Shown: positions 33,228-36,550 of the stretch, piece by piece | Layout of the letters: every line of letters begins with the position of its first letter | How positions within the stretch are numbered: position 1 is the first letter of the stretch | From: Gammaproteobacteria bacterium | Lineage (GTDB): Bacteria > Pseudomonadota > Gammaproteobacteria > Enterobacterales > Permianibacteraceae | DNA length: 64,000 nucleotides | Assembly (NCBI GenBank): GCA_016182845.1 | Contig: JACPFT010000016.1 | Coordinates: 62,001-126,000 of the forward strand | Direction of reading: 5' to 3' | Notes under the pieces: model-generated | What the model was told of the DNA's origin: nothing | Databases searched by the model: none | Seen by the model: only the letters and a program-made list of their open reading frames with translations | Program-made: the position numbers and the translations under genes

Positions 33228-34667
33228 CTAGGCTGTCCCGCCCACGGTGATCTCGTCGATCAACAGGGTCGGCTGGCCCACGCCCACGGGCACGGACTGG
33301 CCGTCCTTGCCGCAGACGCCCACGCCCTCGTCGAGCTTGAGATCGTTGCCGAGCATGGAAATGCGCGTCATGACTTCCGGGCCGTTGCCGATCAGGGTCG
33401 CGCCCTTGACCGGCGCGGTGATCCGGCCGTCCTCGATGAGATAGGCCTCGGAGGTGGAAAACACGAACTTGCCGCTGGTGATGTCCACCTGGCCGCCGCC
33501 GAAGTTCGGGGCGTAGATCCCGCGCTTCACCGAGCGGATGATCTCTTCCGGATCGTGAGACCCGGCCAGCATATAGGTGTTGGTCATACGCGGCATGGGC
33601 AGATGGGCATAGGACTCGCGTCGGCCGTTGCCGGTGGAGCGCCCGCCCATGAGCCGGGCGTTGCGCTTGTCCTGCATATAGCCGCGCAAGACGCCGTTTT
33701 CGATGAGCACGGTGTTCTCGGTGGGCGTGCCCTCGTCGTCGATGCTCAGGGAGCCGCGCCGTCCGGCCAAGGTGCCGTCGTCCACCACCGACACCAGGGG
33801 CGAGGCCACGCGCTGGCCGATGCGCCCGGAGAAAGCGGAGGTGCCCTTGCGGTTGAAATCCCCCTCCAGGCCGTGGCCCACGGCCTCGTGCAGCAGCACG
33901 CCCGGCCAGCCGGGACCCAGGACCACGGGCATGTTGCCGGCCGGCGCAGCGACGGCCTCCAGGTTCACCAGGGCCTGGCGTACCGCCTCGCGGGCATAGG
34001 CGAGACCCCGGCCGCTGTCCAGGAACATGCGGTAATCGCCGCGCCCGCCACCGCCCGAGGCGCCGCGCTCGCGGCGGCCGTTGTGCTCGGCGATCACCGA
34101 GACATTGAGACGCACCAGGGGCCGAATGTCCGCAGCGAAGGTGCCGTCGGTCGCCGCCACCATGACCACCTCGTAGACCCCGGAGATGGACACCATGACC
34201 TGGCTCACGCGCGGGTCGATGCGCCGTGCCTCGGCATCGACCTGGTGCAAGAGGGCGATCTTGTCCGCTTCGGACAGGGAGCCCAGGGGATCGGTAGCCG
34301 GGTACAGGGAGGTCACGGCACGCGGACTGCCCAGGGCCAGGCTGCCCGACTCGCCGTGACGGGCGATGGAACGGGCCGCGCCCGCCGCCTGCTCCAGGGC
34401 CGGCAGGACCAGGTCCTCGGAATAGGCGAACCCGGTCTTCTCCCCGCTCATGGCGCGCACACCCACGCCGCGCGCCACGTTGAAGCTGCCTTCCTTGACG
34501 ATGCCGTCCTCCAGGGCCCAGGACTCGTGGCGGCTGGACTGGAAATAGAGATCGGCGCTGTCGATGGCCCCGCCCATCAACCCGCCCAGGAGGCGGGACA
34601 GATCGGATTCTGCGAGGCCGACGGGGCTGAGAAACAAATCCCGGGCGGTGGTCAAGGCGTTGTGCAT
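33228..34667 (-). CDS. tldD: Metalloprotease TldD
   Basis: Catalytic half of the TldDE protease, 479 aa (E. coli 481). The zinc motif HEAVGH lies at residues 260-265 in [18 protein letters not shown]. The partner pmbA is at 27876-29234, unlinked in transcription. The start is the [12 protein letters not shown] methionine at 34667; the frame stays open far upstream, through the repeat element, but that extension resembles no protein I recognise. Confidence 0.96.
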
Positions 34668-34711
34668 GGAAGACTCTGTGCGTTCAGGTAGGTAGACAGT
34701 GTAACCGGCCC

Positions 34712-34896
34712 TTAGGAGGCGGGCGGAAATAAGTTGGACAAGATGGCGCCCGGATTTGGGTCGGATTGGGTTGTGGCGATTGAGCAAAACCGCAGGCGTA
34801 GCAGGGCTACGTCGAGGATTTTGCGATTGAGACACGGCCCAAGGCGGCCTGAAGCCGGGATGCAAGATGGACAAGTTATTTCCGCCCGCCTCCTTA
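34712..34896. mobile_element. MITE-like element with 22-bp inverted ends and TTA duplication
   Basis: The ends GGAGGCGGGCGGAAATAAGTTG (34715-34736) and 34872-34893 are inverted copies with one mismatch. TTA flanks both sides (34712-34714 and 34894-34896). The 179-bp interior has no coding capacity. It contains two direct copies of GCGATTGAG (34777-34785, 34823-34831) around a GTAGC-AGG-GCTAC hairpin, so the single strand would fold into a long hairpin. No transposase is nearby. I cannot assign a parent family. Confidence 0.7.
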
Positions 34897-35159
34897 GCCA
34901 TGAGCGCCAAGAACCCGTGTGATTTCCCCCCCACCCCTGGGCCGAGACGCCCGGCCGCCGGCTCGGCTCCCCGCGACAAGCCGACACGAACGCCGTTAAT
35001 GAATATCCCCCTGTCATCAAGTTTTACAATGCCGTCGCCGCCTAATTGCGCTAACGCATCATTTTCAATGAGATACAAACTTGGAATTGCATTTGCATCG
35101 CAAGTTTCAGCCAACAGGCTGCACAACTCGAACACGTCCCTACGGACAAGGAGCTTTCC
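34897..35159. other. AT-richer intergenic region upstream of the PEP-CTERM gene
   Basis: No supported gene. From about 34995 to 35130 composition is clearly more AT-rich than the surroundings. AACTTG (35089-35094) and CAAGTT (35100-35112 region) form a small inverted repeat around GCATTTGCAT. A promoter for the downstream gene is probable here but I cannot fix its boxes. AAGGAG precedes the next ATG by six bases. Confidence 0.4.
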
Positions 35160-35669
35160 ATGAACAAGTGGTTATCTTCCCTGTTGAAGTTTGTCTTTAT
35201 GGCCAGCCTCGCCGGCTCCGCCCAGGCCCTGGTGATCGACCCCTCCACCGGCGCCGCAGGCTCTGGATTTTGGGACGAAGGCCCGGGTGACTACATTGCC
35301 TATGATTTCTTCGGCGGCCCCGACACCACCCTGTTCATCACCCTGTCCGGCGCCTCCACCCTGGATATCATCGTCGACGACTGTTGCATCGCCGGCGACA
35401 TGTTCGGCGTGGAAATCGACGGCGTGCTGTTCAGCTGGACCAGCGAGGGCTTCATCGCCGGCCTTTACCATGCCGTCCTCGACGACCTGATGCTCTCGGC
35501 GGGCAGCCACACCATCCGCCTGCTGGTCACCGCCGATTGCTGCGGCTCCGGCGGCATGTCCTGGTTCGTCTCGGAAGCCACCGCGGTCCCGGCCCCGGCC
35601 GGCCTGGCCATCCTGAGCGCAGGGCTCTTCGGCCTGGGCGGTCTGCGCCGCCGCCTGCGCCAGCAATAA
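35160..35669 (+). CDS. PEP-CTERM-type secreted protein (VPAPA variant)
   Basis: Exported protein of 169 aa with an N-terminal signal peptide (cleaved near AQA-LVID), a beta-rich Gly/Asp/Cys body with two CC pairs ([15 protein letters not shown]), and a C-terminal sorting tail: VPAPAG, a hydrophobic helix and a basic end (RRRLRQQ). That tail is the layout of PEP-CTERM substrates cut by exosortase, here with PAP instead of PEP. The function of the body is unknown. It lies on the opposite strand inside the otherwise conserved yhdP-tldD neighbourhood. Confidence 0.82.
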
Positions 35670-35694
35670 GCCTGATGCCCCTAGACAAAACCCC

Positions 35695-35724
35695 AAAACC
35701 CCGCACGAGCGGGGTTTTGCTTTT
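35695..35724 (+). terminator. Terminator of the PEP-CTERM gene
   Basis: AAAACCCCGC-ACGA-GCGGGGTTTT (35695-35718) followed by GCTTTT. The symmetric A and T runs mean it may also stop the convergent nit transcript. Confidence 0.88.
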
Positions 35725-35740
35725 CTGGGCGGGGCCAGGC

Positions 35741-36550
35741 TTACAACCGCCTATGCTCCAAACAAGGGATTGCCTCGCGCCGCCGCCGAATCTCCTCGCT
35801 GTCGATCTCGGCGAAAAGCACGCCCGTGCTCTCAGGTTTCTCCGCGAGGATCTCCCCCCAAGGGCCGACAGCCAGGGAATGACCGTAAGTCAGGCGGCCG
35901 CCGTCGTGTTCGCCGGTCTGCGCCGGAGCGAGGACATAGCAGAGGTTTTCGATGGCGCGGGCGCGCAGCAGGCTGTGCCAATGGGCCTGGCCGGTGGGCT
36001 GGGTGAAGGCGGAGGGGATGCTAAAAACCTCGGCGCCCTGGGCGACGAGGGCGCGGTAGAGTTCGGGGAAGCGCAGGTCGTAGCAGACCGACAGGCCGAT
36101 GCGGCCGACGGGGGTATCGACGCAGACCGGCTCGGTGCCGGGCACGACCGTTGCCGATTCCCGGTAGACCTCGGCGCCGGCGCGCAGGCTCACGTCGAAG
36201 AGATGGATCTTGCGGTAGCGGGCCACTTCCCGGCCCGCCGCGTCGTAGACCGGGCAGGCGTTGTACACCCGATCGGGCTCCGGGCTTTGCTCGGGGATGG
36301 TGCCGGCCACCAGCCAGAGTCCCAGGCGCGCGGCCTCGCCGGCCAGGAAGTCCTGGATCGGCCCGCTGCCCGCCGCTTCGGCCAGGGCCAGTTTGTCCCG
36401 ATCGCTGCGGCCCATGACGGCGGCATTCTCCGGCAGAAGGACGAGTTCGGCGCCGCCGGCCTTGGCCTCGGCGAGGGCGGCGCGCAGGAATTCACGGTTG
36501 GCCGGCCAGTCGGCGCGGCCGCTCATCTGCACCAGGGCGATTCGGCTCAT
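35741..36550 (-). CDS. Nitrilase-superfamily amidase (Nit1-like, probable deaminated-glutathione amidase)
   Basis: Carbon-nitrogen hydrolase of 269 aa. The catalytic Glu-Lys-Cys triad is seen in [16 protein letters not shown] and [13 protein letters not shown]. The residues around the triad resemble Nit1/YbeM-type proteins, which repair deaminated glutathione; that assignment is inference. The start overlaps the yhdP stop (ATGA), so the two are translationally coupled. Confidence 0.88.

Follow-up and report, generated by a model that had tools for sequence, protein, structure and literature searches.

What moved a 179-bp non-coding unit to positions 34715–34893 of a 64,000-nucleotide stretch of gammaproteobacterial DNA (hereafter the window: contig JACPFT010000016.1 of assembly GCA_016182845.1, positions 62,001 to 126,000), and why is the interior of such a unit conserved? 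An earlier note, made from the sequence alone, had described the unit as a miniature inverted-repeat transposable element (MITE). A MITE is usually defined through ends that fit a transposase, and what lies between them is taken to matter little; in this case a 124-nucleotide interior is conserved across several phyla while the ends change. We read the unit as a MITE mobilised by transposases of the ISAzo13 family, carrying a structured core that is independent of its ends and probably acts as RNA, and we assign this combined statement a probability of about 0.62. The sharing of the conserved core with elements of other end types is the main point, and it was not part of the earlier note.

The 179-bp unit, its inverted ends (21 of 22 bases matching), the TTA on both flanks and the internal direct repeats around a small hairpin are in the sequence exactly as first described. 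An 18-base end with at most 3 mismatches occurs at two places in the window, a count never reached in 100 shuffles (0/100), and 135 bases of interior separate the inverted ends. To this we add that all 185 bases fold into one imperfect hairpin (−112.8 kcal/mol versus −62.1, standard deviation 3.87, for 200 shuffles; z −13.1). A BLASTN-type check in the window's own genome (G000; 3.82 Mb, 26 contigs), which the earlier note had proposed, returned a second full copy at another site (C22:172478-172662, 97% identity), again with TTA on both sides. The same genome holds a 46-base palindrome whose ends are of this kind too, between TAA and TAA and directly at a gene's stop codon (C19:250036-250087), as well as solo ends on the TAA stop codons of an Hsp70-like gene (C14:270577) and a ruvA-like gene (C10:329348), both named from reading frames without a family search. 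Further partial matches (C6, C14:197600, C19:130728) carry 2–3 mismatches, and the weakest of them may be chance, since a reversed control pattern gave 2 matches versus 11.

Searching 98 other relatives (99 genomes including G000) gave no match at E 0.001. Of the 295 genomes of the order, G000 alone had a narrow core pattern with at most one mismatch; the exact pattern TWAGGAGGCNGGCGGAAATAA had zero matches in a genome-contig collection that may omit the window's own genome. At the corresponding locus, three of six relatives (L308, L307 and L310 of genomes G001, G002 and G003) have the nitrilase gene adjoining tldD without either insert (the gene was identified from its reading frame or from the LRFPEL motif), and the remaining three (L309, L311, L312) have different sequence upstream. 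The spacer of the relatives is unalignable, and therefore an exact empty site could not be aligned in these six.

More distant relatives are numerous. A pattern made of the apical hairpin plus flank (CRTAGCNNNGCTAYGNCGAGGANNNTGCGA) matched at least 120 stretches (L085-L204), and the counts in this paragraph hold among the matches listed. Their titles name Gammaproteobacteria, Deltaproteobacteria, Desulfobulbaceae, Syntrophobacteraceae, Geobacter, Oryzomonas, Myxococcota, Nitrospirae and Nitrospinota, and relatives are present in Desulfobacterota too. The core occurs 124 times, 30 times near a stretch edge and 32 times away from an edge without both ends under a loose rule. A first placing of ends succeeded for 74 elements, counting both copies of G000, and 57 of the 74 have 179 or 180 bases between the duplications. 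Equal 3-bp flanks were found in 52 of them, compared with 23.8 when partners were swapped, by a placing procedure that favoured equal flanks; an unbiased placing, which left out the window genome, kept 61 elements, 46 of them with identical flanks. TTA or TAA stands on both sides in 49, identical in 45 and not in 4 (p 8e-10 versus one half), same-genome copies not being independent in these statistics. The ends of the relatives clearly mark insertions. A contig classified as viral carries what reads as a full member of the family, flanked by TAA at each end (L205:855-1041, IMGVR_UViG_3300035696_003035), and is the single stretch matched in two viral contig searches (0 and 1); plasmids and phages gave short matches only, the best being 38 core bases on a Martelella plasmid (E 4e-3). 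In three loci of the Geobacter group (L106, L142, L148), cores that lack one end or both are found in sense direction just upstream of an apparent ribosome-binding site and start codon.

In 12 of 59 elements a frame of 80 or more amino acids ends in the flanking trinucleotide (4.0 expected), and an insertion into a TAA stop codon regenerates that stop; the overlap need not mean a target preference, because the background counts all TAA. Stop codons also bear on the idea that the hairpin is a host regulatory structure or terminator that does not move. It lies close to a gene start, the two solo ends and the short palindrome of G000 sit exactly on TAA stop codons, and the left arm contains a weak terminator-like site on the minus strand (34751-34736; three such sites in the region in total versus 1.2 expected). 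The second copy, the TTA flanks, the ISAzo13-type ends and the duplications in relatives speak against this idea as the sole explanation, and the 12 overlaps fit TAA as a target, so that we consider a stationary host hairpin highly improbable.

The ends themselves point to the helper. Of 369 Gammaproteobacteria, 15 carry a transposase gene of the ISAzo13 family (PF07592; E 1e-20), and such genes are present in 2 of a further set of 16 chosen genomes that includes G000. We kept 35 ISAzo13 loci, with ends placeable for part of them only. GG-N10-AAATAA, with exactly the spacing of the window element, stands at one end of eight elements from eight genomes (L211, L212, L213, L217, L218, L220, L222, L223), seven times after TWA and in L213 after TTT at the end shown; copies in genome G555 have AAATTAACTTG in its place. 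Among the nine copies with both ends located, the 3-bp flanks are identical in seven (L211, L217, L218, L220, L223, L228, L233), three of these seven coming from genome G557, and differ in L213 and L226. Transposase-bearing elements with the same end grammar, of the sort that the earlier note had suggested looking for, exist in other genomes; G000 has no PF07592 match at E 0.01, which means that the helper is gone or was external in origin, and that the element there is probably immobile now. Three genomes (G593, G297, G308) contain both an ISAzo13 gene and these elements. The MITE reading is supported by these ends, by the second TTA-flanked copy and by the duplications in relatives, and is sharpened by them to ISAzo13-type ends; judged from sequence, mobility by an ISAzo13 transposase is very probable. 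An IS5-type helper was also considered, from a 52-amino-acid frame beside a solo end (C14:197449; DUF4096 E 0.026, 15.2 bits versus a cut-off of 34.3), and rejected: related frames fall in a palindromic family with different ends (family C, below).

The interior is not derived from the transposon, as it would be in an internal-deletion derivative of ISAzo13 (a type I MITE): the covariance model R1 of the core finds nothing at E 1 in the 35 ISAzo13 loci, and the 124-nucleotide module also stands between quite different ends. R1 matched 28 genomes in a set of 369 Gammaproteobacteria (E 1e-5) and 8 in a draw of 398 from the phylum, G000 being in both counts. When the outermost inverted repeat was sought around R1 matches in 27 loci and in 28 more, core-bearing palindromes mostly of 165–200 bases with several kinds of ends emerged (see the table), and no inverted repeat was found around the core in 3 of the 27 (L252, L264, L267) and in 10 of the 28. 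Both ends of 10 of the 12 TAC-type elements have TA in front of TAC; this could reflect either a TA duplication or an end that extends further out. Two different TAC-type ends surround the same core in one genome, G374 (L255, L275), where an end-based search for an autonomous partner of the TA-flanked type gave 15 matches, with no transposon-length pair recognised.

A model that scores base pairing might reward palindromes of any kind, and we therefore also searched with a profile of sequence only. It recovered 38 of 48 gammaproteobacterial loci at E 0.01 or better and none of 1380 palindromic decoys at E 10, with E values of 4e-16 for L243, 3e-10 for L250, 1e-9 for L254, 3e-9 for L255, 9e-7 for L246 and 3e-5 for L256. 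Homology of the core is therefore firm beyond the ISAzo13 group for the TAC, TATAGTG and TATGCC types; for ATCC-type elements the same searches suggest it weakly, and for CTAGCC-type elements it is possible.

Conservation within the element follows the inverse of the usual MITE pattern. In alignment A1 (34 non-redundant core-bearing sequences, 8 of them without one or both ends) column identity is 0.47–0.55 in the outer zones, 0.77–0.79 in the arms and 0.90–0.94 in the internal loops outside the search pattern; the 26 rows with both ends give 0.49–0.65, 0.76–0.78 and 0.90–0.93. The inner 124 nucleotides thus reach 0.76–0.95 versus variable outer zones, the 0.95 inside the search pattern being partly so by construction. 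RNAalifold on A1 predicts 37 pairs, with 95.5% of 1258 cells paired, whereas slid structures pair 34–46%. Double-sided changes occur in 20 of the 37 pairs, 17 of these 20 in helix 1 and so outside the search pattern; none of 500 shuffles reached any of the measures, the structure having been derived from the same alignment as the covariation test. Could this simply be an ordinary ISAzo13-derived MITE, its core conserved through recent sideways spread and palindromic by origin? Several copies per genome fit recent bursts (in G593 all 9 of 9 scored candidates are hits), as do copies near contig ends (the 30 of 124 core occurrences near a stretch edge, among the matches listed). Compensatory changes in the core far above both controls, ends that have diverged more than the core, and a core common to elements with other ends yet absent from the 35 ISAzo13 loci all speak against it, and we regard it as rather unlikely. 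Selection for a function of the core is, from these alignments, probable.

Protein coding can be set aside as that function. The most open frame, minus frame 2 (open in 29 of the 34 sequences, against 21 for plus frame 0), varies most at codon position 1 and not 3 in a codon-position test that covers this frame only, and the element's two open reading frames (102 and 62 amino acids) gave no hit to Pfam or NCBIfam at E 0.1, in agreement with the first description of the unit as non-coding. Rfam 15 gave no above-threshold match on the core in the 15 sources scanned: in the window it found one tRNA only, with microRNA models far below threshold at E 1, and what it found in 14 further loci with a core, namely tRNAs and a single abiF match, lies outside the core.

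The two strands of the core are not equivalent. The plus strand folds better in 34 of 34 sequences (mean −22.0 kcal/mol versus −7.9, standard deviation 4.0, for dinucleotide shuffles), and 30 of the 34 beat all ten of their own shuffles; in the gammaproteobacterial set, which had been found by the model, the preference is −15.7 versus −6.0 (42 of 48). A role of the core as a transcribed RNA is favoured because of this strand preference together with the compensatory changes. A different explanation is that the core works as a DNA hairpin, an extruded single strand recognised by a host recombinase, HUH enzyme or nucleoid protein; such recognition has been proposed for palindromes of other bacteria. 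In its favour, the element is a palindrome over its whole length, and G.T pairs exceed A.C pairs in 124 versus 22 cells. The column-shuffle null is likewise skewed (142 versus 57); the raw ratio proves nothing by itself, and we used the strand energy test with shuffles instead. Against it, RNA energies give a strand preference about 2.4 to 2.7 times larger than DNA energies do, and recognition as DNA seems to us improbable, somewhat more so than the recent spread of an ordinary MITE.

Several observations weigh against our reading of the element as an ISAzo13-mobilised carrier of an RNA module. With DNA energies the plus-strand preference persists, more weakly (34 of 34, mean −8.2), so that the core may instead act as single-stranded DNA. 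In G593 and G297 the ends beside the transposase gene are similar to the MITE ends, not identical. Ten of the 48 gammaproteobacterial loci fail the sequence-only profile at E 0.01 (L258, L260, L261, L263, L266, L278, L282, L283, L288, L290), and RNAalifold on a free MAFFT alignment of 35 divergent gammaproteobacterial cores gave no common fold (−0.9 kcal/mol). A search for promoter-like sites at 34500-35800 found none, and this sequence analysis saw no transcript or protein partner of the core. Genes around 99 cores, by crude calls, lie upstream on the plus strand in 53 and on the minus strand in 33 cases and downstream in 41 and 46; a bias in gene orientation, considered as support, was too slight on such calls and was left unused.

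Taken together, the following course of events would account for the data. An ISAzo13-family DDE transposase acting in trans would recognise the GG-N10-AAATAA ends and duplicate a TWA trinucleotide at the target. Host transcripts running through the core would then yield a plus-strand RNA with a long hairpin and conserved internal loops; this hairpin might be read by RNase III or by some other RNA-binding protein of the host, with the effect that insertions are tolerated or levels of neighbouring messages changed. That the core acts as RNA we would give even odds on the folding and covariation patterns, and that RNase III in particular reads it, an idea drawn by analogy, appears unlikely. Tentatively, the core might be a mobile structured module exchanged between MITEs of unrelated transposases (the TWA-duplicating ISAzo13 type and several others, mostly TA-flanked, two of them within one genome) and kept for a host-facing plus-strand RNA function that aids persistence of the element. 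If true, mobile elements would carry a widespread family of structured non-coding sequences, and this would open a direct way to ask why conserved hairpins are kept in bacterial MITEs.

Table. Features of the window element, and groups of related elements by end or hairpin type
Feature	Position or loci	Strand	Basis or remark
Left TTA target duplication	34712-34714	.	Sequence; TWA duplication backed by relatives (45/49)
Left terminal inverted repeat, GG-N10-AAATAAGTTG	34715-34736	+	21/22 versus right end; ISAzo13-family end grammar and spacing
Conserved structured core	34743-34866	+	Covariance model R1, 137.2 bits, the window itself being among the 34 sequences of the model
Internal-loop strand GCGATTGAG, left, conserved	34776-34784	+	Direct repeat D2; near-invariant columns in alignment A1
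Apical hairpin GGCGTAGC-AGG-GCTACGTC, then conserved GAGGA	34795-34813	+	Sequence, fold; motif common to family B of the same genome
Internal-loop strand GCGATTGAG, right, conserved	34823-34831	+	Direct repeat D2; alignment A1
Right terminal inverted repeat	34872-34893	-	Sequence
Right TTA target duplication	34894-34896	.	Sequence
ISAzo13-type ends	L242, L245, L247, L248, L249, L253, L273, L280, L281, L286; probably L244, L258, L313		
TAC-type ends	L246, L250, L251, L254, L255, L257, L259, L262, L275, L279, L287, L290		
TATAGTG ends	L256		
TATGCC ends	L243		
CTAGCC-type ends	L260, L261, L278, L282		
ATCCTAAAAACC-type ends	L265, L268, L288		
Other ends	L263, L266, L271, L272, L276, L314, L317, L319		Some probably inner repeats
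GCGGCAGAGCCGCTCCCAC-hairpin elements	L124:2282, L146:7370, L161:6482, L171:5867, L183:476		

The element sits in the divergent spacer between tldD, which lies on the minus strand with its start codon at 34665-34667, 44 bases from the left TTA, and a short PEP-CTERM-like gene (35160-35669). This is the position reported before; the PEP-CTERM label is weak but plausible, its Pfam score lying below the cut-off and the NCBIfam models fitting C-terminal stretches only, below their cut-offs. A strong terminator-like hairpin, seen on both strands, stands between the PEP-CTERM-like and nitrilase genes (35694-35719).

G000 contains further palindromic families. Family B has the hairpin motif at 18 places, inside palindromes with TAGTGG ends (e.g. 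L049-L059, L062-L067). R1 listed 17 of the 17 places tested, 16 of them at E 0.024 or better; the best score, 30.7 bits, is no higher than the 32.6 bits of the window element's opposite strand, so that palindromy alone may carry these matches. The sequence-only profile found the hairpin only, in 15 of 17 (E 0.014–0.061), and by these searches the relation of family B to the window element rests on the apex; family B may also resemble Correia elements. Family C (L078, L079, L080, L081) has ends CAGGGCCGGAGCATACTT or near and a core GGGCGAACGGT...ACCGTTCGTGCTGAG, and R1 matched 0 of these 4 loci. In the gammaproteobacterial metagenome-assembled genome Modern_marine.mb.35 similar arms occur with the apical hairpin swapped for a GCGGCAGAGCCGCTCCCAC hairpin.

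Among known systems, the ISAzo13 family (DDE_Tnp_ISAZ013) shares with the window element TWA followed by GG-N10-AAATAA and a 3-bp TWA duplication; unlike it, ISAzo13 elements are about 1.29–1.35 kb long, encode a transposase and show no trace of the core in the 35 loci. Core strings in open-licence PubMed Central text gave one 12-mer match, judged chance, and a paper matched there for ISAzo13 together with MITE yielded no description of such an element. The other comparisons are by description only, as for the MITEs of PMC4853749. QMITE2 of Coxiella burnetii, a palindrome of 150–190 bp with about −113 kcal/mol and a stem shared with distant bacteria (PMC5896051), is alike in size, fold energy and shared stem, but has direct repeats of 7–11 nucleotides where TWA is found here. 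Chunjie of Geobacter uraniireducens (178–235 bp, conserved ends, direct repeats; review PMC10969869) is alike in its Geobacter host, size, ends and repeats, and may be a member of the window element's family. Correia elements (CREE/NEMIS) of Neisseria are likewise short palindromic mobile elements with a conserved directional core. If Chunjie, CREE and QMITE2 were relatives, this would lower the novelty of the family. RNase III binds or cleaves the hairpins that CREE form in mRNA (PMC2649163); this is the nearest tested precedent and would apply to the window element by analogy.
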